Origin: Janibacter cremeus
Lineage (GTDB): Bacteria > Actinomycetota > Actinomycetes > Actinomycetales > Dermatophilaceae
Direction of reading: 5' to 3'
Assembly: GCF_013409205.1 (NCBI RefSeq)
Contig: NZ_JACCAE010000001.1
Coordinates: 682,001 to 746,000, forward strand
Length of the DNA: 64,000 nt
Shown here: piece by piece, positions 38,952 to 61,212 of the stretch
Position numbering within the stretch: position 1 is the first letter of the stretch
How the letters are laid out: every line of letters begins with the position of its first letter
Notes under the pieces: model-generated
Database searches by the model: none
The model's input: the letters and a program-made list of their open reading frames with translations, nothing else
Told to the model about the DNA's origin: nothing
Translations under genes and position numbers: made by a program

Positions 38952-38998
38952 TCACAGTGTTGGATGGCACCACCCCATCGGCTACCCAGGAGTTCTCC

Positions 38999-40498
38999 AT
39001 GACCAACTTGGCCAGCAACCTCGTTGCGACCGCCCAGGCACACCCCGACCAGGTGGCCATCAAGCTCGACGACGCGGAACTGACCTGGCAGCAGCTGCAC
39101 GGCATGGCCGCCAGGGCCGCCGGCGCCATGCGCGCCGCCGGTCTGGAGCCGGGCGACCGTGTCGCGCTGATCCTGCCGAACATCCCCGCCTTCCCGGTGC
39201 TCTTCTACGGCGCCCTGCTGGCCGGCGGCACCGTCGTGCCGATGAACCCGCTGCTGAAGGCCCAGGAGATCGAGTACTTCTTCACCGACTCCGGTGCGAA
39301 GTTCGCCTTCGCGTGGGGCGACTTCCTCGGCGAGGCGCAGGGCGGCGCGGAGGGGACCTCGACGAAGGTGATCGCCTCCGGCCCCGTCGGCCCGAGCGAG
39401 GAGGACCTGCCCGCGGGTGAGCCACTCGCCGCGCCGGTCGAGCGCGACGACGAGGACACCGCGGTCATCCTCTACACCTCGGGCACGACCGGCCGGCCCA
39501 AGGGCGCGGAGCTGACGCACCGGAACCTCCACCTGAATGCGCAGCGCTCCGCGCACGACATCATCGGCATCACCTCCGACGACGTCGTCATGGGCTGTCT
39601 GCCGCTCTTCCATGTCTTCGGTCTGACCTGCGGCCTCAACGCCGCGACTCTCACCGGCGCGACCCTCACCCTCGTGCCCCGCTTCGAGCCCGGAAAGGCG
39701 CTGGAGGTCATCGAGCGCGACCAGGTGACGATCTTCGAGGGCGTGCCGACGATGTACGGCGCGATGCTGCACCACCCTGCCGTGGACGCCACCGACATCT
39801 CGAGCCTGCGCACCTGTGTCAGCGGCGGCTCGTCGCTGCCGGAGCAGACCCTCACCGAGTTCGAGGCGAAGTTCAAGGTGCGGCTGCTCGAGGGCTACGG
39901 CCTGTCGGAGACCTCCCCCGTGGCCTCCTTCAACATGCTCGACAAGCCGAGCAAGCCCGGGACGATCGGGCGGGCCATCCCCGGCTGCGAGATGAAGCTC
40001 GTCGATGACAACGGCGACGAGGTCGGCCCCGGCGAGGGCGTCGGTGAGATCGCCATCCGCGGCGACAACATCATGAAGGGCTACTGGAACAAGCCCGAGG
40101 AGACCGCCGCGGCCATCCGCGACGGCTGGTTCTACAGCGGTGACATCGCGAGCGTCGACGATGAGGGGTACTACACCATCGTCGACCGCAAGAAGGACAT
40201 GATCATCCGCGGCGGGATGAACATCTACCCCCGCGAGGTCGAGGAGGTGCTGTACACGCACCCGGACGTGCTCGAGTGCGCTGTGGTCGGAGTGCCGCAC
40301 CCGGAGCTCGGCGAGGACGTCGGGGCAGCGGTGTCCCTGCGCGAGGGCGCCTCGGGTGACGTCGACGAGATCCGGGCCTACGTCAAGGACCGGATCGCGG
40401 CCTACAAGTACCCCCGCCTGGTGTGGGTGCTGGACGAGATCCCCAAGGGCCCGACGGGCAAGATCCTCAAGCGCGAGGTCCAGGCCCCGAGCGCCTGA
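38999..40498 (+). CDS. AMP-forming acyl-CoA ligase (long-chain fatty-acid-CoA ligase type)
   Basis: An adenylate-forming enzyme of 499 residues that activates a carboxylic acid with ATP and CoA. Signature motifs are [16 protein letters not shown] (~residue 160), [10 protein letters not shown] (~300), WFYSGDIAS (~375), [18 protein letters not shown] and the catalytic Lys in PTGKILKRE near the C terminus. An AGGAG lies 7 nt before ATG 38999. Chain length and substrate are not predictable. It is divergent from ligA and convergent with the biotin carboxylase gene. Confidence 0.92.
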
Positions 40499-40509
40499 AC
40501 CGCGAGGCC

Positions 40510-40584
40510 GTGCCCGAAGGGGCCTCCTGGTGCATCTCGTGGCGGATACCGCCGGTGATGACGCCGGGAGGCCCCTTCGTGCAC
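40510..40584. terminator. Long inverted repeat between acyl-CoA ligase and accC
   Basis: Arms of 18 nt (40510-40527 and 40567-40584) contain a 13-bp perfect stem, CGAAGGGGCCTCC / GGAGGCCCCTTCG, plus GTGC/GCAC outside one mismatch. The 39-nt loop has an inner GGCGG/CCGCC stem. It lies between convergent genes, 11 nt past the ligase stop and 21 nt past the accC stop, and is a likely bidirectional terminator. Confidence 0.7.
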
Positions 40585-40605
40585 GATCCCCGACGCGCGA
40601 TCGAC

Positions 40606-41961
40606 TCAGCGCGGGCCGGTCGAGCGCTCCTCGAACCACGTGGTCGTGACGCCGCCCGCGCGGAAGGCCTCGTCCGCGATCAGCGACAGGTGCAGGTCAC
40701 GTGTGGTCACCACGCCCTCGACGGTGAACTCGGTGAGGGCCTGCTCGGCACGGGCCAGTGCTTCGTCACGGTCCCGACCGTGGACGACCACCTTGGCCAC
40801 CAAGGAGTCGTAGTACGGCACGATCTGCCCACCTGCCACGAATCCGGAATCCACCCTCACCCCGGGACCATTCGGTGAGTCGAATCGGACGAGCTCCCCC
40901 GGCGAGGGGAAGAAGTCCTGCTCCGGGTCCTCGGCGTTGATCCGGAACTCCACGGCAGCGCCGGAGAGCGTGATGTCGTCCTGGGTCACCGACAACGGCT
41001 CCCCTGCGGCGACCCTCAGCTGCTCGGCGACCAGGTCCGTATTCGTCACCATCTCGGTGATCGGGTGCTCCACCTGGATGCGGGTGTTCATCTCGATGAA
41101 GTAGAACGCCTGCCCCTCGACGAGGAACTCCACGGTGCCCGCGCCCTGGTACCCGACCTCGGCGGCCAGGCGGACCGCCGCGCTCGTGATCTCGTCCCGC
41201 AACGTCGCGGCCAGCCCCGGAGCTGGTGCCTCCTCGAGCAGCTTCTGCCGGCGCCGCTGGACCGAGCAGTCCCGCTCGAAGAAGTGGACGACGTTGCCGT
41301 GCGTGTCACCCACGACCTGGACCTCGATGTGCCTGGCGTTCTCGATGCACCGCTCGAGGTAGAGCGAGCCGTCGCCGAAGGAGGCGCTGGCCTCGGCCTG
41401 CGCGGTCGCAACCGCGTCATCGAGCTCGTCGTCGGTCCGCACCACGCGGATGCCTCGGCCGCCACCTCCGGCAGCCGCCTTGATCAGCAGGGGGAAGCCG
41501 ACGTCGGCGGCTGCGGCACGCGCGGCCGCCGCGTCGGCGACGACCCCCGAGCCGGGGACGACGGGGACACCGGCCTGCTCGGCGGTCCGGCGTGCAGCGG
41601 CCTTGTCACCCATCGACTCGATCACCTCGGCCGAGGGACCCACGTAGGTCAGTCCCGCCTCGGTCACACGCCGGGCGAACTCCGGGCGCTCGGCCAGGAA
41701 TCCGTATCCCGGGTGCACGTGGGTGCACCCGGAGTCGCGTGCTGCCTCCAGGACCGCGTCGATGTCCAGGTAGGAGCGACGAGCTGGTGAGGGGCCGATG
41801 CGGCGGGCATCGTCGGCGAGTACCACCCAGCGCGAGTCGGCATCGGCGTCGGAATGCACCGCGACCGCCTCCCAACCACAGGTGTGCGCTGCCCTGATGA
41901 CACGGACCGCGATCTCGCCGCGGTTGGCGACGAGGACCCGTCGGGTGGGTGCGGCGCTCAC
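40606..41961 (-). CDS. accC: Biotin carboxylase (AccC-type) of the Mo-hydroxylase/PxpABC operon
   Basis: Carboxylates biotin on the carrier protein using ATP and bicarbonate. The 451-residue ATP-grasp protein has VLVANRGEIAVRVIRAA at the N terminus, the ATP loop KAAAGGGGRGIR (~residue 160), the catalytic FIEMNTRIQVEHPITE (~285-300), and a C-terminal EFRINAEDP region. It is shorter than fused acyl-CoA carboxylase alpha subunits and lacks its own biotinyl domain. It overlaps the carrier gene by 4 nt. Rather than fatty-acid synthesis, its context ties it to the PxpBC carboxyltransferase-like subunits. Confidence 0.95.
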   Translation of the reverse strand: MSAAPTRRVLVANRGEIAVRVIRAAHTCGWEAVAVHSDADADSRWVVLADDARRIGPSPARRSYLDIDAVLEAARDSGCTHVHPGYGFLAERPEFARRVTEAGLTYVGPSAEVIESMGDKAAARRTAEQAGVPVVPGSGVVADAAAARAAAADVGFPLLIKAAAGGGGRGIRVVRTDDELDDAVATAQAEASASFGDGSLYLERCIENARHIEVQVVGDTHGNVVHFFERDCSVQRRRQKLLEEAPAPGLAATLRDEITSAAVRLAAEVGYQGAGTVEFLVEGQAFYFIEMNTRIQVEHPITEMVTNTDLVAEQLRVAAGEPLSVTQDDITLSGAAVEFRINAEDPEQDFFPSPGELVRFDSPNGPGVRVDSGFVAGGQIVPYYDSLVAKVVVHGRDRDEALARAEQALTEFTVEGVVTTRDLHLSLIADEAFRAGGVTTTWFEERSTGPR

Positions 41962-42191
41962 TCCAGGACCGCCACGTCCTGCCCGACGGACAGCTCGGAC
42001 TCGTCGTCTACCAGGAACTCCTTGATGGTTCCGCCTGCCGTTGCCTTCAGCTCGGTGAAGTTCTTCATCACCTCGATCAGGCCGATCGTCTGGCCCTCGG
42101 TGACCTGGTCGCCGTCGTTGACGTACACCTCCTGGTCCGGGGAGGGGCGACGGTAGAACACTCCGGGGAGCGGAGAGGAGATCGTGGGCAT
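41958..42191 (-). CDS. accB: Biotin carboxyl carrier protein
   Basis: A 77-residue biotinyl domain. The lysine is in LIEVMKNFTEL, where the usual AMKM reads VMKN, a variant often seen in urea-carboxylase-like and oxoprolinase-linked carriers. It starts directly with SSPLPGVFYRRPSPDQ and has no N-terminal Pro/Ala linker, so it is a minimal stand-alone carrier. It lies 46 nt after pxpC, and its stop overlaps the accC start. Confidence 0.93.
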   Translation of the reverse strand: MPTISSPLPGVFYRRPSPDQEVYVNDGDQVTEGQTIGLIEVMKNFTELKATAGGTIKEFLVDDESELSVGQDVAVLE

Positions 42192-42237
42192 CGTGCTTCC
42201 TTTCGACGAGTTTGCGTAGCTGTGCGTGTGGTCGGGC

Positions 42238-43212
42238 TCAGGCCAGTGCCGAACGAATCCGGTCCAACCAACGGGTGCGGTCGGCGCGCGCGGCCAGGGC
42301 CTCGTCGATGCCGACGTCCCGGAACCGGATCGTGTCGCCCGTCTTGGCCTGTCCGAACAGGTCCCGGTCGACAGAGATGACCGTGGCGATCGTGACGTAA
42401 CCACCACCGGTGACCGCGTCGCCGAGGAGGACGATCGGCTCGTCCCCACCCGGTACCTGGATCGAGCCCAGCGGGTAGCCGAGGTCGACCACGTTCGCCG
42501 GATCGCTGCCCGCCCCGAAGGGTTGCTCGCGCTCGACGAAGTCGAGCGTGCCGCCGCGCAGCCGGTACCCGACCCTGTCCGCGTCCTTGGTGATCCGCCA
42601 CGGGGTGCCCAAGAAGGACTCGAGTGCGTTCTCCGTGAGCCGGTAGGAGCACAACCCGACGACGGCCCTGACCTCGACGTCGGAGGGGAACTGCGGCACC
42701 AGGTCGTCGGGGACGACAGCGCCTTGCGTCCCTCCCGAAGCATCACCCAGCGGGAGGACGTCACCATCGGTCAGGGTGCGACCCTCGTGGCCACCGAGCC
42801 CGATCAGGGTGTAGGTCGAGCGCGATCCCAGGTACTCCGGTACGGCGACGCCGCCGGAGACCGCGATGTACGGGCGGGCACCCGTGGTGATCATCCCGAA
42901 TGCCAGTACGTCGCCACTGGTGACCCTGGTGCTCGCCCACATCGGAACCGGTTCGCCGTTGAGCGTGACGGCGGCGTCCCCACCGGTCACCGCGACGATC
43001 CGCTCGTCGGTGAACTCCAGCGTCGGTCCGATGTACGTGGCCTCCAGGGCGGCGGCGCCCTCGGGGTTGCCCACGAGGAGGTTGGCGACCCGGAAGGAGA
43101 ACTGGTCCATCGCACCGGAGGGCGGCATGCCGATGGCATACCGGCCCGTGCGGCCGAGGTCCTGGACGGTCGTCGACAGTCCACCCGAGACGACTCTCAC
43201 CTGTGCACTCAT
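42238..43212 (-). CDS. pxpC: 5-oxoprolinase subunit C family protein (biotin-dependent carboxyltransferase-like)
   Basis: A 324-residue CT_A/KipA family protein, homologous to part of the urea amidolyase carboxyltransferase domain. Signatures are GGLSTTVQDLGRTGRYAIGMPPSGAMDQFSFR (residues ~9-40, read in pieces), the SGGVAVPEYLGSRSTY segment (~120-135), and a C-terminal VTGGGYVTIATVISVDRD. With PxpB it forms the PxpBC complex. It overlaps pxpB by 4 nt. The native substrate may be a lactam other than 5-oxoproline, given the operon content. Confidence 0.92.
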   Translation of the reverse strand: MSAQVRVVSGGLSTTVQDLGRTGRYAIGMPPSGAMDQFSFRVANLLVGNPEGAAALEATYIGPTLEFTDERIVAVTGGDAAVTLNGEPVPMWASTRVTSGDVLAFGMITTGARPYIAVSGGVAVPEYLGSRSTYTLIGLGGHEGRTLTDGDVLPLGDASGGTQGAVVPDDLVPQFPSDVEVRAVVGLCSYRLTENALESFLGTPWRITKDADRVGYRLRGGTLDFVEREQPFGAGSDPANVVDLGYPLGSIQVPGGDEPIVLLGDAVTGGGYVTIATVISVDRDLFGQAKTGDTIRFRDVGIDEALAARADRTRWLDRIRSALA

Positions 43213-44108
43213 CGGTACAGCACCTCCAGCAGACGGTCGTTGACTCCTTGTGGGTCGTCGAGGAAGGCTGCGGGCGAGAACTCGACGTCGTGCTGGCGAT
43301 ACCGGAACGTCCCTGCCTCCACCTCCCTGCGGGTGTCGTCGAACTCCGCGCGGTCCACGGATCGGTACCTCAGGATGTCGCCCGCCCTCGGGAAGACGAT
43401 GGAGTGGTCGAAGTCCGGGTGGTCCTGGCGCACGTTGAGCACCGGCGTGGCAGACATCCCGTACAGCTGGTATCCGCCGGCGCCCTGGACCGGGTAGACC
43501 ACCGAGAAGGCACCACCGATCCCGAAGGCCCGTTCCGGGGTGAAGGTCCGGGGACGCACGTACTTGGGGACCTGCACCTGCCGTTCCCTCGGCTCGAGCT
43601 GGTAGCAGAACGGCAGACCCGGGACGAAGCCGAGCATCGTCACGATCCACGGGTTCCCGGCCAGGTGCTCGATGAAGGCCTCGACGCTGTCGAAGCCGTT
43701 GGTGCGGGCGCCGTACTCCAGGTCGGTCGACTCCGGGTCCTGGTGCCGGTCGCGGAAGCGCATCATCGCCTCGTGCGTCCAGGGATCGTTGTAGAGCACC
43801 GGCACGTCCACCACGCGGGTCTGCAGCGTGAAGCCCTCGGGCACCTCCTGGAAGCGCCCTTCGAGATCCTTCAGCAGCCCCATGAGTTCCGCCGGGGGCA
43901 CGACGTCGGGGTCGAACCGCACGAGGTAGGACGCATTGGAGGGACAGATGTCGACCAGGCCCGACATCTGCCTGTTCTCCAGCTCCTGGGTGATGAGTGT
44001 GGCCTTGATGTTGGCCTCCATGCTCATCTCCTCGGCGATCTCGACGAAGATGAACTCGTCTCCCCCGTGCTCGTAGCGCGCGGGGGGCAGCTGCACCGGT
44101 TGGCTCAT
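43209..44108 (-). CDS. pxpB: 5-oxoprolinase subunit B family protein
   Basis: A 299-residue CT_C_D/KipI family protein, the partner of PxpC. It shows the conserved GFVPGLPFCYQLEP, the preceding AFIEHLAGNPWIVTML, and the FGIGGAFSVVYPVQGAGGYQ segment of the allophanate hydrolase subunit 1 family. An AGGAGGG lies just upstream of ATG 44108. It overlaps pxpA by 4 nt and pxpC by 4 nt, so translation of the three should be coupled. Confidence 0.92.
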   Translation of the reverse strand: MSQPVQLPPARYEHGGDEFIFVEIAEEMSMEANIKATLITQELENRQMSGLVDICPSNASYLVRFDPDVVPPAELMGLLKDLEGRFQEVPEGFTLQTRVVDVPVLYNDPWTHEAMMRFRDRHQDPESTDLEYGARTNGFDSVEAFIEHLAGNPWIVTMLGFVPGLPFCYQLEPRERQVQVPKYVRPRTFTPERAFGIGGAFSVVYPVQGAGGYQLYGMSATPVLNVRQDHPDFDHSIVFPRAGDILRYRSVDRAEFDDTRREVEAGTFRYRQHDVEFSPAAFLDDPQGVNDRLLEVLYR

Positions 44109-44884
44109 GAACCCTCCTGGTCGATGTGGTGGAGGGACCGGATCGTCCACCCCTTGCTCGTGATGCGATCGACGACCGCGTGGGCGTTGTCGACGGCCCC
44201 GGGACGGTCCGAGTGCAGGCAGATCGTGTCCGCCCGGATCGAGGACTCGACACCGTTGACCGAACGGATTCGGCCGTCGAGGATGTCGGCGACCTGGTCG
44301 GCACACCACTGTGGGTCACGACGCTGGTTCTTCGGGTCGATGATGATGTGGCCGTCATCGGTGTACTCCAGGTCGGCAAAGGCCTCGGCTGCCACCTTGT
44401 GGCCACGCTCGCGCTGGCGCTCGGCACAGTGCCCGGCCTCGAGCACCATCAGGAGCGACGCGTCCATCTGGGCGACGGCATCGGCCACGGCGTCCGCCGC
44501 GTCGTCGTCCTTCATCAGCAGCCCATAGAGGCTGCCGTGGGGTTTGACGTGGCGAAGGGGGACCCCCAGCTGGTCGGCGAAGGCGCGCAAGGCACCCGTC
44601 TGGTACAGCACCGCCTGCGCTGCCTCTGCCGGGGAGAAGGCCATCGCCCGGCGCCCGAAGCCGGTGAGGTCGGGGAATCCCGGGTGCGCGCCCAGCCCGA
44701 TCTCGTGCTCCTTGGCGAGCGTGACCGAGGTGGACATCGTCGCCGGGTCGCCGGCGTGCCACCCGCAGGCGACGTTGATCGAGGAGATCAACGGGGCCAG
44801 CGACTCATCGGCGCCCAGGGTCCACCGACCGAAGCTCTCACCACCATCCGCATTGAGATCGATGAGTTTCGTACTGGCACTCAT
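44105..44884 (-). CDS. pxpA: 5-oxoprolinase subunit A (LamB/YcsF family)
   Basis: The catalytic or activating third subunit of PxpABC, a 259-residue LamB/YcsF TIM-barrel protein. Signatures are IDLNADGGESFG at the N terminus, NVACGWHAGDP, GAHPGFPD and the VKPHGSLYG segment. In E. coli and B. subtilis, PxpABC opens 5-oxoproline with ATP. Here the extra biotin carboxylase and carrier support a carboxylation-based mechanism for lactam opening, as in urea amidolyase. The gene starts 43 nt after the FAD-subunit stop. Confidence 0.93.
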   Translation of the reverse strand: MSASTKLIDLNADGGESFGRWTLGADESLAPLISSINVACGWHAGDPATMSTSVTLAKEHEIGLGAHPGFPDLTGFGRRAMAFSPAEAAQAVLYQTGALRAFADQLGVPLRHVKPHGSLYGLLMKDDDAADAVADAVAQMDASLLMVLEAGHCAERQRERGHKVAAEAFADLEYTDDGHIIIDPKNQRRDPQWCADQVADILDGRIRSVNGVESSIRADTICLHSDRPGAVDNAHAVVDRITSKGWTIRSLHHIDQEGS

Positions 44885-44927
44885 GCACACGCTCCTGTCG
44901 TGACGATTCCGGGACGGTCGCTTCTCC

Positions 44928-45788
44928 TCATCCACCCACTCCTGCGGCTGCGGTGACCGCTCTGCCTGCGAGGACTCCCGCGAGGTGGCGGCGGTACTCG
45001 GCCGTGCCCGCGGCGTCGACTGCCGGGGAGGTCCCCTCACCAGCACGCGCTGCCGCATCGTGCAGTGCGCCTTGTTGGAGCGGCGCTCCCCTCAGGGCTG
45101 CTTCGGCCGCCTCGGCCCGCAGCGGGGTCTGCCCCATGTTGGCCATCCCGAGACGCGCCCGGGCGACGGCACCGTCCTCGACCTGCACCGCCGCCGCCAC
45201 GGCGACGATGCACCAGGACTGGGCCACCTGCGCAAACTTCTCGTAGTGCATCCCCCACCCGGTGTGCTTGGGCACCCGGACCGCGGTCACCACCTCCCCT
45301 TCGTCCAACGCAGTGGTGAAGGGGCCGTGGAAGAACTCGGCCGCAGGCACGGTCCGCGCACCGGCGGGCCCGCTGATCTCGATCGCCCCGTCGAGGGCGA
45401 GCACGGCGGGTGCGATGTCACCGGCCGGGTCGGCGTGGGCCAGGGAGCCGCCGATGGTCCCCCGGTACCTGATCTGCGGATCCCCCACCGAGGCAGCTGC
45501 CTGTCCCAGGACCCCGGCGTGCGCGGCGACGAGCGGGTCGTGGGCCACGGTGTGGTGGGTGGTCATGGCACCGATGACGAGGTGATCGCCCTCCTCGCGC
45601 ACCTGCTTCAGCTCGGGGACCCGACGCAGGTCGACGAGCAGGTCCGGGTCGGCCATCCGCATCCGCAGCACCGGCATCAGCGACTGCCCACCACCCATGA
45701 TGGTGGCCTCGCCCCCGCCGTCGGCGAGGCTGCGCACCACCTCCTCGATGCTGGTGGGTGAGGTGTACTCGAAGTCCACGGGCCTCAT
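44928..45788 (-). CDS. FAD-binding subunit of a molybdenum hydroxylase (CoxM-like)
   Basis: A 286-residue medium subunit of the xanthine dehydrogenase/CO dehydrogenase superfamily. The FAD site is IMGGGQSLMPVLRMRMADPD (~residue 29-48), followed by ASVGDPQIRYRGTIGGSLAHADPAGD (~95-120, read in pieces) and a CO_deh_flav_C tail. It passes electrons from the 2Fe-2S subunit to FAD and on to an external acceptor. It overlaps the large subunit gene by 4 nt. Confidence 0.93.
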   Translation of the reverse strand: MRPVDFEYTSPTSIEEVVRSLADGGGEATIMGGGQSLMPVLRMRMADPDLLVDLRRVPELKQVREEGDHLVIGAMTTHHTVAHDPLVAAHAGVLGQAAASVGDPQIRYRGTIGGSLAHADPAGDIAPAVLALDGAIEISGPAGARTVPAAEFFHGPFTTALDEGEVVTAVRVPKHTGWGMHYEKFAQVAQSWCIVAVAAAVQVEDGAVARARLGMANMGQTPLRAEAAEAALRGAPLQQGALHDAAARAGEGTSPAVDAAGTAEYRRHLAGVLAGRAVTAAAGVGG

Positions 45789-48217
45789 GCCGTCACCTGT
45801 CCCTCGGTCGCGCGTGCGGATGCCTCGTGGATCGCGGTCCACACCTTCAGTGGTGTGCACGGCATCGTGATGTCGGTGACTCCGAGCGGTCGCAGCGCGT
45901 CCAGGACACCGTTGACGATGGCCGGGGGTGCCGCCGTGGTTCCTGTCTCGCCGACCGCCTTGACGCCCAGCGTGTTGGTGGTCGCCTCGGTCACCGTGGT
46001 GTCCGTGCGATAACGCAGGACGTCGGGAGCGGCGGGGACGAGATAGTCGGCCAGGGTGCCGCTGGTCAGCTGCCCCTCGTCCGAGTACTGGATCTCCTCG
46101 TACAGCGCCTGCGCGATGCCCTGCGTCAGTCCGCCGTGCACCTGACCGTCGACGATCATCGGGTTGACGATGACGCCCACGTCCTGGACGCAGACGTAGT
46201 CGCGGACCCTCACCCGGCCGGTCTGCGTGTCGACCTCGACGGCCGCCAGGTGGGTCCCCGTCGGGTAGGAGAAGTTCTCCGGGTCGAAAGTGAAGTCCGC
46301 ATCGAGGTTCGGCTCCAGCCCGTCCGGGAGGTCGTGCGCGAGCCACGTGCTGAGCATGATCTCCTGGATCGTCACCCCGCTGGTCGTGCCCTTGACCGAG
46401 AACTTCCCCCCGACGAACTCGAGGTCGTCGGCGCTGGCCTCGAGCAGGTGGGCGGCGATCGGCCTCGCCTTTTCCACGACCTTGCGGGCCGCCCCGACGA
46501 TGGCCATCCCACCGACGACCAGCGAGCGGGACCCGTAGGTGTCCATGCCCTTGTGCGAGGACGCGGTGTCGCCGCTGATCAGGATGATGTCGTCGAAGGG
46601 GATGCCCAGCTCGTCAGCGACGATCTGGGAGAAGGCAGTCGCGTGGCCCTGCCCGTGCGAGGTGGTGCCCACCACGACCTCGACCTTGCCCGTCGGCAGC
46701 ATCCGGACCGTGGAGTGCTCCCACCCGCCGGACCCGTAGTTCAGCCCGCCGAGCACGCGGCTGGGCGCGAGGCCGGACAACTCGACGAAGGTGCACACCC
46801 CGATGCCGAGCTGGACCGGATCCTTCGCCTCACGGCGCCGCTGCTGCTCCGCCCGGAGCTCGTCGTACCGGAACATCGCCAGTGCCTTGTCGGTGGCCTG
46901 GTCGTAGTTGCCCGAGTCGTAGGTCAGACCGGCGGCGGTGGCGTACGGGAACTCCTCGGCCCTGATCCAGTTGCGTCGTCGCACCTCGATCGGGTCGAGG
47001 TCCAGCTCGACGGCCAGCTCATCCATCATCCGCTCGATGCCGAAGGTCGCCTCCGGCTTCCCCGCACCGCGGTAGGCATCGGTCATCGTCTTGTTGGTGA
47101 AGACGTCCGTGCAGTGGAAGCTGTAGGCGGGGACCCGGTAGATGCCGTTGAACATGAACCCGCCCAGCAGCGGGATACCTGCGGTGAGGATCCCCAGGTA
47201 GGCACCCATGTCGGCGGTGAGATCCACGTCCAGAGCCGTGATCGTCCCGTCGCGCTTCGCGGCCAGAGTCAGCTCCTGCACCTGGTCCCGGGCGTGGTGC
47301 GAGGACTGCATGGACTCGCTGCGGGTCTCGGTGTACTTGCACGGCAACCGCAGACGCCGGGCAACGAGGAGCACGAGCGCCTCCTCACGGGTGAACTGCA
47401 ACTTGCCGCCGAAGCCCCCACCGACGTCCGGGGCCACGACACGCAGCTCGTGCTCCGCGATGGGCTGGGTCATCGACATGAGGATGCGCACGATGTGCGG
47501 GACCTGGGTCGCCGACCACATCGTCACCTGCTCGGCGTTCGGATCGACCACGATCGAGCGGGGTTCGATGTATGCGGGCGTGATGCGGTTCTGCCGGAGG
47601 GTGCGTCGCACGACGACCTGGTCCGGGTCGGACTCCGCCTCTCGGATCACCGCAGCCGCGTCGCCCCCGGTACCGAGCGTGACCGAGTCCAGCCCCCAGG
47701 TGGCGCACACGTTCGTGCCCAGGTCGGGGTGGACGAGCGGACTTCCCTCCTGCTTCGCCGCCAGTGGATCGACGACCACGGGCAGCTCGTCGTAGTCGAC
47801 GTCGATCAGCTCGAGGGCGTCCTCGGCAGCCTCCTTGGACGTCGCCGCCACGACCGCCACGATGTCGCCGACGTGCTTGACCGCGCCGACGCTCAGCGGG
47901 AAGTACGGCGGCGTCTTCATGTCGTCGCTGACCGTCCACGCCGTCGGCATCGCGCCCTGCTCCGGCAGGTCCTCGCCGGTCCAGACCCCGACGACACCGT
48001 GGGCCCGAGCTGCCTCCGCGGTGTCCAGGCTCGTGATCGTCGCATGCGCCACCGGAGAACGGAGCACCGACAGGTGCACCATCCCCGGCAGGGTCATGTC
48101 ATCGGTCCAGCGGGTCCGACCGGTCAGGGCCCGCTCGTCCTCGCGGCGCAGTCGCGCGCGGCCGATCTCGGGTCGCTGCTCGTCCTCGGCCACGGTCGGA
48201 TCGGATGTCGTGGTCAT
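45785..48217 (-). CDS. Molybdopterin-binding large subunit of a molybdenum hydroxylase (CoxL form II-like)
   Basis: This 810-residue catalytic subunit carries the Mo-cytosine dinucleotide cofactor. The N-terminal a/b hammerhead ends near residue 160, and GGGFGGKLQFTRE lies at ~260-272. The active-site loop reads TDAYRGAGKPE (~residue 375), and the catalytic base Glu is in AVGETGTTAAP (~residue 755). AYRGAGR/K marks form II large subunits. True CO dehydrogenase has AYRCSFR, so CO oxidation is not expected. Form II enzymes hydroxylate heterocycles or aldehydes. It overlaps the 2Fe-2S subunit gene by 4 nt. Confidence 0.94.
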   Translation of the reverse strand: MTTTSDPTVAEDEQRPEIGRARLRREDERALTGRTRWTDDMTLPGMVHLSVLRSPVAHATITSLDTAEAARAHGVVGVWTGEDLPEQGAMPTAWTVSDDMKTPPYFPLSVGAVKHVGDIVAVVAATSKEAAEDALELIDVDYDELPVVVDPLAAKQEGSPLVHPDLGTNVCATWGLDSVTLGTGGDAAAVIREAESDPDQVVVRRTLRQNRITPAYIEPRSIVVDPNAEQVTMWSATQVPHIVRILMSMTQPIAEHELRVVAPDVGGGFGGKLQFTREEALVLLVARRLRLPCKYTETRSESMQSSHHARDQVQELTLAAKRDGTITALDVDLTADMGAYLGILTAGIPLLGGFMFNGIYRVPAYSFHCTDVFTNKTMTDAYRGAGKPEATFGIERMMDELAVELDLDPIEVRRRNWIRAEEFPYATAAGLTYDSGNYDQATDKALAMFRYDELRAEQQRRREAKDPVQLGIGVCTFVELSGLAPSRVLGGLNYGSGGWEHSTVRMLPTGKVEVVVGTTSHGQGHATAFSQIVADELGIPFDDIILISGDTASSHKGMDTYGSRSLVVGGMAIVGAARKVVEKARPIAAHLLEASADDLEFVGGKFSVKGTTSGVTIQEIMLSTWLAHDLPDGLEPNLDADFTFDPENFSYPTGTHLAAVEVDTQTGRVRVRDYVCVQDVGVIVNPMIVDGQVHGGLTQGIAQALYEEIQYSDEGQLTSGTLADYLVPAAPDVLRYRTDTTVTEATTNTLGVKAVGETGTTAAPPAIVNGVLDALRPLGVTDITMPCTPLKVWTAIHEASARATEGQVTA

Positions 48218-48699
48218 CGTCCTGCCTCCTGCTCGCCCGCGGTCTGCGAGTAGGCCATGACCGCCGAGACGATCCCCTGGTAGCCGGTGCAGCGGCACAT
48301 GTTGCCCTTGAGCCCCTCACGGACCTCGTCCTCGGTCGGCTCGGGGTTCTCCCGTACGAAGCACACACTGCGCATGAGCATCCCGGGGGTGCAGTAACCG
48401 CACTGCAGACCGTGGTGCTCGTGGAAGGCCTGCTGGACCGGGTGCAGGGTGCCGTCGGCAGCGGCCAGCCCCTCGACGGTCTCGATCTCGGCGCCGTCGG
48501 CCTGCACGGCGAGGACGGAGCAGGACTTGATGCTCTCCCCGTCGACGAGCACGGTGCAGGCCCCGCAGTTGCTGGTGTCGCACCCGACGACGGTGCCGGT
48601 CTTGCCCAGCGTCTCGCGCAGATGGTGCACCAACAGGGTTCGGGGTTCCACCTCGTGGGTGAAGTTCATGCCATCGACATTGACGGTGATGCGGGCCAT
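48214..48699 (-). CDS. 2Fe-2S subunit of a molybdenum hydroxylase (CoxS-like)
   Basis: A 161-residue small subunit. The N-terminal plant-type ferredoxin cluster is GCDTSNCGACTV, with the fourth Cys in IKSCSVLA. The C-terminal helical cluster uses CGYCTPGM and CRCTGYQGI. ATG at 48699 is preceded by GAAGGAAG and begins ARITVNVDGMNF, the family start. It is the first gene of the eight-gene operon. Confidence 0.95.
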   Translation of the reverse strand: MARITVNVDGMNFTHEVEPRTLLVHHLRETLGKTGTVVGCDTSNCGACTVLVDGESIKSCSVLAVQADGAEIETVEGLAAADGTLHPVQQAFHEHHGLQCGYCTPGMLMRSVCFVRENPEPTEDEVREGLKGNMCRCTGYQGIVSAVMAYSQTAGEQEAGR

Positions 48700-48792: not shown

Positions 48793-49773
48793 TCAGCCGG
48801 CGGCGAGGTCCGTCAGGGCGGTGGCCAGATCGCCGGTGGTGCGCAGGACCGAGACCGCCGACGAAGGGGGTGCCCCGGCCAGTCCGCACGCGGGCGTGAT
48901 CACGAGGTCACCCAGCGCGGCATCGGGCAGACCGATGCGGTGCCAGTCGCCGACGAGCCGGTCGCGGGCAGCACGCCAGTCACTCTCGCCCGAGGTCGGG
49001 ACGGCTCCCGCCCAGAGGGTGGTGCCGGCCTCGACGGCCTCTGCCAACTGCTCCCAGCGGGGGCCGTCGACGCGCGAGGTGTCCAGGGAGATCCCGTCGG
49101 CGCCGCTCTCCCGCAGCAGCGTCACCGGGACCTCTCCGCTGCAGCAGTGCAGGACGCTGGTGTGCCCCCGGAGCGCATCGATGATCGTCCGCAGCCCGTC
49201 GCGCACCTCGCCGCGGCCGACGGCGCGCAGGCGTCCGTAGCCGGACTGGGTCGGCAGGCGCCCCTCGAGCACAGCGGGCAGGCCGGGCTCGTCGATCTGC
49301 ACGACCACCGAGGCTGCGGGCACGAGTCGCTCGACATCAGCAACGTGCCGGCGCACTCCCTCGGCGAGCGCCCCGGCGATGTCACGACGCGCCCCCCGGT
49401 CGGAGACGGCACGTTCCCCCCGAGGCAGCTCGATGCTCGCACCGAGGGTCCACGGGCCGGCGACCTGGAGCTTCAGCGAGCCGGTCCACCCGTCGTAGGC
49501 CTCGGCGAGCTCGTCGAGGTCCTCGCGCAGGAAGCCACGGGCCCTGCCTTCCTCCCGGCTCGGCCGATCGGTGAAGCGCCATCCGTAGGGCTGGGTCTCC
49601 ACGTGCAGGTCGGCGAGCATCGCGGCACCACGGCCGATGATGTCGGCGCCGGGGCCGCGGGCGGGCAGCTCGGGCAGGTGGGGAATGCCGTCACCGAGCA
49701 GGTCGCGGACGGTGACGACGGCCTCGCGCGGGCGCTCCCCCGGCCAGGAGCCGATGCCCGAGGCGAGGGTCAC
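48793..49773 (-). CDS. MetE-like / UROD-fold methionine synthase-type protein
   Basis: A 326-residue single-domain relative of the cobalamin-independent methionine synthase C-terminal half. Zinc-type ligands are visible in [10 protein letters not shown] (~residue 205) and [10 protein letters not shown] (~290), with the start [13 protein letters not shown]. It lacks the folate-binding N-terminal half of MetE, so methyl transfer from a donor other than methyltetrahydrofolate, or another role, is likely. It overlaps mnmA by 4 nt. This pairing recurs in actinobacteria as I recall. Confidence 0.85.
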
Positions 49774-59319: not shown

Positions 59320-61212
59320 CTACGGGGTGACGATGGCGAAGTCGGGGTCGCCGGGGTCCAGCACCGCGGACAGTCGATCGATCGTCGACGGATCGCCGGT
59401 GAGCTCGATGCCCGCGTCGGCGAGACCGTCTGCCGTGAGACCGCCGAGCGCCAGGGCCGGAAGGGCGCGACGTGTTGTGGTCAGGGTGGCGTCCGGATCG
59501 CCGTGCTGCGGCTGGGAGCTGTAGGTGAGTGCTCCGTTCGAGAGTCTGAGCCGGTAGCGCTCGCTCGCGTCGGACAGGACGACGTCGATCGAGAGGCTCT
59601 CATCCCATGCCGCCGGACCGTTGATCTGGACCGCGATCGCATCGAAGAGCATCGCCGGGCTCAGCTGGGCGACCATGTCAGGCGATGCGGTCACCGTGGG
59701 GGTACCGAACTGGCCCTCTCGGAGCTCGAAGGCCCCGGAGAGGAAGAAGTTGCGCCAGGTGCCGTTCTCCGACCCGTACCCGAGCTGCTCGAGCGTGTCG
59801 GCGAGCAGCTCGCGTGCGCCGTCGTGGTCGGGCTGGGCGAAGACGACGTGGCTGGTCACCTCGGCTGCCCAACGGAAGTCACCGGAGTCGAACGCGGCCT
59901 GTCCGTTGGCGAGCACGGCGTCGGGGCCGCCGCCGAGGTCGACGTAGCGCTTGGCCTTCTCGACCGGTGGGTGTTCCCACAGATGGGCCGGGTTGCCGTC
60001 GAACCAGCCGAGGTAGCGCTGGTAGACGGCCTTGACGTTGTGGCTCACCGAGCCGTAGTACCCGCGCGTGCTCCACGCGTTCTCAAGAGCGGGTGGGAGG
60101 GTGATCTCCTCGGCGATCTCCGGTCCGGTCAGGCCCTTGTTCAACATCCTCAGCGTCTGGTCGTGCAGATAGGCGTAGAGATCACGCTGCAGGGACAGGA
60201 AGCCCACGACGCGCTCGTTGTCCCATGTCGGCCAGTGGTGGGATGCGAAGACCGCCTCCACCTCGGCGCCGAACAGGTCGATGGTCTCGGTCAGGTACTT
60301 CGCCCAGACGTGCGGGTCGCGAACGACGGCGCCGCGCAGCGTCAGCAAGTTGTGCAGGTTGTGGGTGGCGTCCTCGGCCGCGCACAGTGCCTTGTGGTCG
60401 GGGAAGTAGAAGAGCATCTCCGAGGGGGCCTCGGTGTCCGGTGCCATCTGGAAGACGATCCGTACGCCGTCGACGACCTCTTCGTGACCGGTCGTGGTGA
60501 TCTCGAGGGTCGGCGCGATGAAGGTGACCGTGCCGGTCGAGGTCGTCTGCCCGAGGCCGGCGCCGAGCGCGCCTTCGGCGTTGCGGGGCAAGGCTGCGCC
60601 GTACATGTAGCCGGCCCGCCGGCCCATCGCCGTGCCTGCATAGACGTTTTCCGAGACCGCGTGCTCGACGAAGCCCTCCGGAGCGAGCACCGGCACCCGG
60701 CCCGCATCTACGTCCTCCTGGGTGATCACTCCCTTGACCCCGCCGAAGTGGTCGACGTGGGAGTGGGTGTAGATCACCCCCACGACCGGACGGTCACCGC
60801 GGTGCTCGCGGTAGAGCGCGAGAGCCGCCGCGGCGGTCTCGGTGGAGATCAGCGGGTCGATCACGATCACCCCGGTCTCGCCCTCGACGAAGCTGATGTT
60901 CGACAGGTCCATCCCGCGTACCTGGTAGATACCTGGCACGACCTCGAACAGGCCATCGGTCGCGACCAGGGTCGACTGCCGCCACAGGCTGGGGTTGACC
61001 GTGTCCGGGGCCTCACCCCGGATGAAGGCGTAGGTGTCGTTGTCCCACACAGTGCGCCCGTCCTCGGCGAGGACCGCATTGGGCTCGCGACGCCCCACGA
61101 ACCCGCGCTTGGCGTCGTCGAAGTCCTGAGTGTCGTCGAACGGTAGACGCGCGCGCAGATCGCTCTGCTGCTCGGCCATGGTGGACGATGCCGGCTTTGG
61201 CCTGATTGACAT
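59320..61212 (-). CDS. Alkyl sulfatase / metallo-beta-lactamase fold (SdsA-like)
   Basis: A 630-residue enzyme that cleaves primary or secondary alkyl sulfates. The metallo-beta-lactamase motif is YTHSHVDHFGG (~residue 165), with further zinc ligands in EDATHNLHN (~275) and SHHWPTW (~315). The alkyl-sulfatase dimerisation domain follows (~330-470). An SCP2-like domain closes the protein (~505-630, ending DPDFAIVTP). It has no signal peptide, unlike the secreted SdsA1, so a cytoplasmic role is likely. ATG at 61212 or 61179 is possible. It is convergent with the DrrB-like gene. Confidence 0.93.
   Translation of the reverse strand: MSIRPKPASSTMAEQQSDLRARLPFDDTQDFDDAKRGFVGRREPNAVLAEDGRTVWDNDTYAFIRGEAPDTVNPSLWRQSTLVATDGLFEVVPGIYQVRGMDLSNISFVEGETGVIVIDPLISTETAAAALALYREHRGDRPVVGVIYTHSHVDHFGGVKGVITQEDVDAGRVPVLAPEGFVEHAVSENVYAGTAMGRRAGYMYGAALPRNAEGALGAGLGQTTSTGTVTFIAPTLEITTTGHEEVVDGVRIVFQMAPDTEAPSEMLFYFPDHKALCAAEDATHNLHNLLTLRGAVVRDPHVWAKYLTETIDLFGAEVEAVFASHHWPTWDNERVVGFLSLQRDLYAYLHDQTLRMLNKGLTGPEIAEEITLPPALENAWSTRGYYGSVSHNVKAVYQRYLGWFDGNPAHLWEHPPVEKAKRYVDLGGGPDAVLANGQAAFDSGDFRWAAEVTSHVVFAQPDHDGARELLADTLEQLGYGSENGTWRNFFLSGAFELREGQFGTPTVTASPDMVAQLSPAMLFDAIAVQINGPAAWDESLSIDVVLSDASERYRLRLSNGALTYSSQPQHGDPDATLTTTRRALPALALGGLTADGLADAGIELTGDPSTIDRLSAVLDPGDPDFAIVTP

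Follow-up and report, generated by a model that had tools for sequence, protein, structure and literature searches.

Why should the genes of a molybdenum (Mo) hydroxylase, a PxpABC-type lactamase and two biotin proteins stand together in one operon? The question is raised by a 64,000-nucleotide (nt) stretch of the Janibacter cremeus genome, hereafter the window (contig NZ_JACCAE010000001.1 of assembly GCF_013409205.1, positions 682,001 to 746,000), in which eight genes, all on the minus strand (window positions 40606-48699), follow the order 2Fe-2S (FeS) subunit, Mo subunit, flavin adenine dinucleotide (FAD) subunit, pxpA, pxpB, pxpC, biotin carboxyl carrier protein (BCCP) and biotin carboxylase (BC). 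Five of the junctions are 4-nt overlaps and the other two are gaps of 43 and 46 nt. This arrangement, described in a first-pass annotation of the window, is confirmed by the coordinates, and each of the eight parts is identified by Pfam and NCBIfam. The explanation that we favor, at a rough probability of 55% taken as a whole, is that the operon is a cassette for the breakdown of a short lactam, or of a cyclic imine that yields it.

In terms of sequence relationships, the operon PxpB and PxpC are assigned by score, tree and alignment to a third carboxyltransferase clade, apart from both 5-oxoprolinase and urea carboxylase. PxpB scores 63.1 bits against the PxpB equivalog TIGR00370 (cut-off 145.6) and 118 bits against the urea carboxylase model TIGR02712 (cut-off 1304), and PxpC scores 214.3 bits against the PxpC equivalog NF045499 (cut-off 500). 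A tree was built from 67 PxpC-type sequences, comprising 11 of the 18 available canonical sequences, 11 urea carboxylases and 45 sequences labeled BC-linked, a label given to every locus found through a high-scoring PxpB, with the BC gene lying outside some of the short stretches. Each of the three groups sits to one side of a well-supported branch (100/99 for the BC-linked group, which is recovered in 100% of 200 bootstrap trees), and the operon PxpC lies outside both the canonical and the urea carboxylase clades. For PxpA, a single branch of a quick tree likewise parts the BC-linked from the canonical proteins.

The alignment places Lys182 of the operon PxpB opposite Lys1605 of Kluyveromyces lactis urea amidolyase, which, according to the structural report, is most likely the general base on which the carboxyltransferase depends (PMC5770610). 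This column is occupied by lysine in 45/45 BC-linked sequences and 10/11 urea carboxylases, and by arginine in 19/19 canonical PxpB rows (19 sequences cut from 20 loci). Membership of canonical PxpABC was rejected on the equivalog scores, the PxpC tree and the lysine in place of arginine, and membership of the urea carboxylases on a TIGR02712 score far below cut-off and a carboxyltransferase outside that clade. The AlphaFold model of PxpB, with a mean predicted local distance difference test score of 52, was too poor for use. A search for fused single-chain versions returned at least 88 proteins among 7988 scored candidates, the top one 35% identical over 96% of the queried part; among the matches listed, the long proteins with informative names are urea carboxylases, urea amidolyases or members of the 5-oxoprolinase/urea amidolyase family, and none is named LamA. 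A further biotin-linked arrangement is seen in P0179, P0184 and P0196, proteins of ~680 amino acids (aa), one of them from a Bacteroidales metagenome-assembled genome (MAG), in which a single chain combines PxpB and PxpC with a biotin/lipoyl domain.

The biotin parts accompany this clade closely. Among 40 loci with an operon-type PxpB, PxpA is found in 37, the carrier in 36 and BC in 37. Most of the missing parts coincide with the end of a contig or stretch (L059, L202, L203 and L204), and the genome with L060 has a BC gene beside its Mo gene on a different contig; L098, which is without PxpA and BC, and L089, without a detected carrier, lie at neither kind of end. All three parts are present in 7/7 further Micrococcales loci. 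The biotinyl-lysine MK motif is present in the 37 carriers read, and two BC motifs with catalytic roles are present in 39/39 sequences (two of them urea carboxylases), with the looser RxNAE in 34/39. A gene for the biotin transporter BioY lies between pxpB and the BC gene in 8 of 14 Rubrobacteraceae loci, and bioB comes after the Acidiphilium cluster. Carboxylation rather than phosphorylation, as the first-pass annotation had proposed, is supported because the operon has a BC and a BCCP of its own, the general-base lysine and a separate clade, and because biotin uptake or synthesis genes stand beside some relatives. On this sequence evidence, biotin-dependent carboxyl transfer by BC, BCCP and PxpBC is very probable.

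Related clusters also vary in their surroundings. Four loci in Pseudomonadota (L057, L081, L094 and L096) share the order LysR, pxpA, accB, accC, pxpB, pxpC, after which come genes for a TorT-like binding protein and an ATP-binding cassette transporter, a layout that suggests substrate uptake. On plasmid pRHL2 of Rhodococcus jostii RHA1 (L058), a bacterial microcompartment locus that includes an aminotransferase lies no more than ~10 kb from a dispersed BC-linked cluster. On a Methylobacterium aquaticum plasmid (L095), the BC-linked cluster has a hydantoinase/oxoprolinase A/B pair downstream of it, which brings two putative lactam-opening systems into proximity.

The same comparisons bear on the notion that the operon encodes a second, biotin-dependent 5-oxoprolinase that performs the canonical PxpABC reaction, the Mo enzyme being unrelated or acting on a proline-derived imine. 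PxpA, PxpB and PxpC are all homologous to PxpABC, and PxpA scores above the cut-off of an NCBIfam PxpA subfamily (276.8 against 226 bits), as this notion would predict. We nevertheless consider it improbable: a canonical-type pxpA, pxpB, pxpC group is already present in 16/16 Janibacter genomes (in the source genome with no BC or BCCP within ~8 kb of it), PxpB and PxpC score far under the equivalog cut-offs, PxpA and PxpC fall in clades of their own, the active-site position differs between arginine and lysine, and genes of 4-aminobutyrate (GABA) metabolism lie beside some relatives.

The Mo hydroxylase belongs to the xanthine oxidase family, as indicated by Fer2, MoCoBD and FAD_binding_5 domains and a glutamate at the catalytic position. 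Glu757 of the Mo subunit, which we take to be in the position of the family's catalytic glutamate, is kept and is followed by Thr758 (codon 45944-45946). The top-scoring solved chains are the large subunits of carbon monoxide (CO) dehydrogenase and quinoline 2-oxidoreductase. A form-I CO dehydrogenase was rejected, as the subunit reaches 616.5 of 991 bits against TIGR02416 and its loop reads AYRGAGKPEA; the loop of form-I CoxL is AYxCSFR.

The association of this enzyme with the lactamase genes has arisen more than once. In a 396-genome sample of the phylum, 21 genomes have such a PxpB above 300 bits, 13 of them with a nearby Mo gene on the same contig and three more (G220, G422 and G063) with a link shown across split contigs; the scan scored the two best Mo candidates per genome, a procedure by which Mo genes can be missed. 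Placing the 13 linked rows on a tree of 48 Mo subunits takes at least three label changes, and a single origin is seen in 0/200 bootstrap trees. The linked Janibacter subunits group with ordinary actinobacterial paralogs, those of Rubrobacteraceae with Rubrobacteraceae and that of the archaeon Natrinema gelatinilyticum with haloarchaeal proteins; Janibacter's own paralog, ~60% identical, lies near an XdhC gene. The Natrinema order is B, C, carrier, CoxG-like, FeS, Mo, FAD and A, then BC on the opposite strand. By phylogeny, the Mo subunit is thus placed as having joined lactamase clusters separately in at least three lineages (Janibacter, Rubrobacteraceae and Halobacteria). A Diaphorobacter cluster, which is followed by a distant Mo trio (29% identity, outside the Mo tree), is perhaps a fourth recruitment.

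At each predicted recruitment the linked subunits depart from their unlinked paralogs in two active-site segments, which are the same every time. The 35 unlinked Mo subunits in the tree all read AYRGAGRPEA, and in all of them the VKGxGE glutamate (with TKG for VKG in one protein and SKG in another) is followed by alanine. The linked subunits read AYRGAGKPEA and GET in Janibacter (6/6), (A/S)YRGAGRSEA and GES in Rubrobacteraceae (6/6), and AYRGAGRAEG and GES in Natrinema (1/1). A further 40 Mo genes were labeled by linkage before their motifs were read, some of the labels being marked uncertain. The linked ones are all altered (6/6, with RSE or RAE, and GES in the five whose second segment is readable); the other 34 comprise 29 unaltered genes, four of them judged by the first segment only, and five altered ones. 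On reading of the contigs, all five proved to be linked, four with the carrier and PxpA and one with BC 2.3 kb away, so that motif and linkage matched in all Mo genes that could be checked. Among columns common to the linked Janibacter and Rubrobacteraceae subunits and distinguishing them from paralogs, three passed the rule applied and none is clearly meaningful. In one Rubrobacteraceae genome (G231; L063:4378-6722) the linked Mo gene is split over two reading frames, by sequencing error or as a pseudogene.

A proposed link of the Mo enzyme to the lactamase is supported by these separate recruitments with changes in the same segments, and real functional coupling of the two appears probable from the sequences. 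The contrary notion, that an aldehyde-oxidizing Mo enzyme and a lactamase stand side by side with no common pathway, can draw on the FeS and FAD subunits, whose best NCBIfam model is a glyceraldehyde dehydrogenase (below cut-off), and on the majority of BC-linked clusters having no detected Mo gene. We regard it as quite unlikely in view of polyphyletic linkage in three lineages, the alteration of both segments in every linked and no unlinked Mo subunit read, the 4-nt overlaps within both parts and the presence or absence of the genes as one cassette.

This last behavior is seen within Janibacter. An operon-type PxpB, divergent and second to the canonical copy, is found in 7/16 Janibacter genomes, and the complete eight-gene set in the same order is found in six loci (the source and G002, G009, G003, G006 and G014), the seventh genome, G013, being counted by its PxpB only. 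The flanking genes are neighbors in 9/9 Janibacter genomes without this PxpB, with 85-164 nt between aligned ends in seven and ~0.6-0.9 kb in G011 and G001, and no operon gene was detected between them in these nine stretches of ~3.9 kb. Because the flanks adjoin without operon genes in the PxpB-negative genomes, the operon appears to have come or gone as a single unit. The eight-gene group is no chance neighborhood.

Beyond Janibacter the lactamase part travels farther than the whole. Among 396 genomes of the order, 10 have a PxpB match with E<1e-60, three of them Janibacter and seven at 46-51% identity. In a separate search, the three records found with PxpB are all Janibacter (86-89% identity). 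In the seven non-Janibacter Micrococcales loci the five-gene cluster (PxpA, PxpB, PxpC, carrier and BC) is complete and no Mo gene was detected. Protein matches to PxpB, read without gene order, come from an Ornithinimicrobium MAG (84%) and a Beutenbergiaceae MAG (88%). BC-linked PxpB/PxpC clusters occur in Actinomycetota, Pseudomonadota and Halobacteria, the five-gene part thus extending to archaea. The first-pass annotation had staked its pathway on a gene order conserved beyond close relatives; the genome search found the exact eight-gene order only in Janibacter, which goes against that expectation in the letter, and the separate Mo recruitments answer it in substance.

Which ring is opened is suggested by neighboring genes in some other lineages, which point to GABA and hence to 2-pyrrolidinone, a substrate that the first-pass annotation had not named. 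A GABA transaminase gene lies within ~6 kb in 8/14 Rubrobacteraceae loci, both of those scored being above the TIGR00700 cut-off. A succinate semialdehyde dehydrogenase (SSADH) gene lies in three loci of that family (L063, above cut-off; L069, just under; and L202) and an agmatinase-type gene in four. Ruegeria sp. TM1040, from another phylum, has annotated gabT and SSADH genes near its cluster, and a class-III aminotransferase gene adjoins the cluster in 4/9 haloarchaeal loci. In addition, ycsF/pxpA is related to lamB, a 2-pyrrolidinone utilization gene of Aspergillus nidulans (PMC3412718). 2-Pyrrolidinone is favored because its opening gives GABA. A lactam giving an omega-amino acid is a likely substrate; 2-pyrrolidinone in particular is put slightly below an even chance.

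The same biotin-dependent opening may instead serve another ring, such as delta-valerolactam, a succinimide-type imide, a hydantoin or cyclic ureide, or an aromatic N-heterocycle hydroxylated by the Mo enzyme. The carboxyltransferase fold of urea carboxylase accepts ureido-type N-H groups, as does the same fold in guanidine carboxylase, GABA-type transaminases also take 5-aminovalerate, and clear GABA genes are missing from most clusters outside Rubrobacteraceae. The amidase-signature gene that recurs beside the cluster in 6/40 loci and in 1/7 of the further Micrococcales loci would also suit a route through an imide or amide. We hold this alternative to be doubtful, as the gabT and SSADH genes by some Rubrobacteraceae clusters and that of Ruegeria best fit a C4 omega-amino acid. 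Similar amidase-signature genes stand beside or inside clusters of Micrococcales (L216:4657-6138), Rubrobacteraceae (L068:12733-14247) and Halobacteria (L079:5355-6845).

The proposed reaction sequence begins with a cyclic imine, for which 1-pyrroline (cyclized 4-aminobutanal) is the likeliest candidate; the Mo hydroxylase would hydroxylate the carbon beside its nitrogen, giving 2-pyrrolidinone. A Mo hydroxylase that turns a cyclic imine into a lactam has a counterpart in aldehyde oxidase, which converts the nicotine iminium to cotinine. The next step, which has the support of sequence and phylogeny, would be carboxylation of the biotin carrier by BC at the expense of adenosine triphosphate (ATP) and bicarbonate. 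PxpB and PxpC, acting like urea carboxylase, would pass the carboxyl group on to the nitrogen of the lactam, and PxpB Lys182 would serve as the general base. PxpA would hydrolyze the labile N-carboxylactam, and the resulting N-carboxy amino acid would shed CO2 to leave GABA for ordinary transaminase and semialdehyde dehydrogenase steps. ATP would thus be spent through biotin and bicarbonate, and the lactam would not be phosphorylated. That 1-pyrroline is the substrate of the Mo enzyme is a tentative suggestion. The scheme in its fullest form, a new lactam catabolism in which biotin-dependent N-carboxylation marks the ring nitrogen, LamB/PxpA opens the ring with loss of CO2, and a Mo hydroxylase recruited separately at least three times supplies the lactam from a cyclic imine (for example 1-pyrroline to 2-pyrrolidinone to GABA), is put somewhat below an even chance.

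Alternatively, ring opening may come first and the Mo enzyme second, with 4-aminobutanal or succinate semialdehyde as possible substrates. Enzymes of this Mo family commonly act on aldehydes, and since 4-aminobutanal and 1-pyrroline interconvert, this possibility overlaps with the imine route just described. It is considered unlikely; an SSADH gene is already near three Rubrobacteraceae clusters.

Several observations weigh against the lactam cassette as we propose it. A Mo gene is detected in 15/40 loci and in 0/7 of the further Micrococcales loci, some of the stretches being cut short, and with most clusters lacking a detected Mo gene it follows that the lactamase can work without the Mo enzyme. 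The Natrinema link is known from one genome, and linked Mo subunits of Rubrobacteraceae occur without detected FeS and FAD genes (L061-L070 and L154-L156). A gabT match of at least 50% identity is found in only 9/40 loci (eight Rubrobacteraceae and Ruegeria), with 1/9 in Pseudomonadota and 0/5 in Janibacter, and none was detected in the seven further Micrococcales loci. In Janibacter the best match to TIGR00700 scores 361 bits against a cut-off of 507, so that no GABA transaminase passes. A PRK08117-type aminotransferase was rejected as a gene that tracks the operon, since it is present in 14/16 Janibacter genomes with or without the operon. The eight operon genes include no transporter or regulator, and no tested activity was found for any enzyme of the BC-linked clade.

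Two of these points have a possible reconciliation. The PRK08117-type gene of Janibacter, one copy of which has internal stops, adjoins SSADH-like and amidase genes, and its product could replace GABA transaminase. The linked Mo subunit of Rubrobacteraceae may borrow FeS and FAD subunits from a paralog. An unlinked Mo paralog elsewhere in Rubrobacteraceae has FeS and FAD genes.

The features of the locus are collected in the table. The hairpin below the operon is predicted at -60 kcal/mol (z -5.3), with 0/200 shuffles as stable; it is absent from the T-tailed terminators listed by a pattern scan, and a promoter scan found no promoter. Elsewhere in the window, an alkyl-sulfatase-like gene of the metallo-beta-lactamase fold lies at 59320-61212.

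Table. Features of the Janibacter cremeus operon and its borders, in window positions.
Feature	Position	Strand	Details
2Fe-2S subunit, xanthine-oxidase-family Mo hydroxylase	48214..48699	-	161 aa; Fer2_2 + Fer2
Mo subunit	45785..48217	-	810 aa; AYRGAGKPEA loop, residues 381-390; VKAVGETG, residues 752-759; Pfam
FAD subunit	44928..45788	-	286 aa; FAD_binding_5 + CO_deh_flav_C
PxpA (LamB/YcsF family), proposed ring-opening hydrolase	44105..44884	-	PF03746
PxpB-like carboxyltransferase half	43209..44108	-	299 aa; Lys182 codon 43563-43565
PxpC-like carboxyltransferase half	42238..43212	-	324 aa
Biotin carboxyl carrier protein	41958..42191	-	77 aa; EVMKNF biotinyl-lysine motif, Lys43 codon 42063-42065; NF005457 above cut-off
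Biotin carboxylase	40606..41961	-	451 aa; NF006367 above cut-off
Long GC-rich hairpin, possible shared terminator	40505..40600	.	between convergent 3′ ends of operon and acyl-CoA-ligase-like gene
Acyl-CoA-ligase-like flanking gene	38957..40498	+	named by sequence reading; one insertion-site border
Methionine-synthase-like flanking gene	48793..49773	-	named by sequence reading; second insertion-site border

Searches of the open-licence literature yielded no paper recognized as an account of a PxpBC lactamase that depends on biotin or of the pairing of a Mo enzyme with PxpABC. The individual parts have precedents, but their combination seems new, as do the diagnostic lysine and the repeated Mo recruitment. 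Public records label the genes of these clusters as 5-oxoprolinase, urea carboxylase, acetyl-CoA carboxylase or allophanate hydrolase; the BC-linked family is widespread, and its names are probably wrong. If the proposal is true, these genes encode a separate kind of lactamase that depends on biotin and is recognizable by a single lysine, annotations become separable by sequence, and biotin is used to drive a hydrolysis. The change of the same Mo segments when separate lineages joined the same partner would offer a tractable model of enzyme coupling. Lactams such as 2-pyrrolidinone are industrial monomers, and there would be practical value in a defined set of enzymes that makes or removes them.

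Among the closest known systems is the PxpABC 5-oxoprolinase, reportedly described by Niehaus and co-workers in 2017 (E. coli ybgJKL). The two share homologous PxpA, PxpB and PxpC proteins encoded together and lactam chemistry; they differ in that the operon has a BC and a BCCP, neither of which stands beside the source genome's canonical copy, that its PxpB has lysine rather than arginine at the general-base position, and that it forms separate clades and coexists with the canonical copy. The pxpTABC genes of Corynebacterium glutamicum represent the same 5-oxoprolinase system (PMC13274462). With urea carboxylase and urea amidolyase (TIGR02712; K. lactis 3va7 and 5i8i) the operon shares the BC, BCCP and carboxyltransferase families, the general-base lysine and the KY..RT.T segment. 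Its parts are, unlike those of urea carboxylase, encoded by separate genes rather than in one chain and fall in a sister clade, and, unlike urea amidolyase, it has PxpA and no allophanate hydrolase among its eight genes, the rest of the genome being unsearched.

In A. nidulans, lamA and GABA co-regulation belong to 2-pyrrolidinone utilization, and we know of no Mo enzyme in that system. LamB is a PxpA homolog (PMC3412718) and the pathway likewise leads from lactam to GABA, whereas the system is fungal. The caprolactamase CapAB, the hydantoinase HyuAB and eukaryotic 5-oxoprolinase resemble the operon in ATP-driven lactam opening, and a part played by bicarbonate in CapAB has been discussed (PMC8453981); they belong to unrelated families, and the Pfam scan reported no hydantoinase/oxoprolinase domain in the operon. 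Finally, the Mo hydroxylases of the AYRGAGRPEA group, the ~60% identical paralog among them, share with the operon enzyme three subunits and the glutamate after the VKxxG segment, from which the operon Mo subunit is set apart by a lysine for arginine in the loop, a threonine after the glutamate and linkage to the lactamase.

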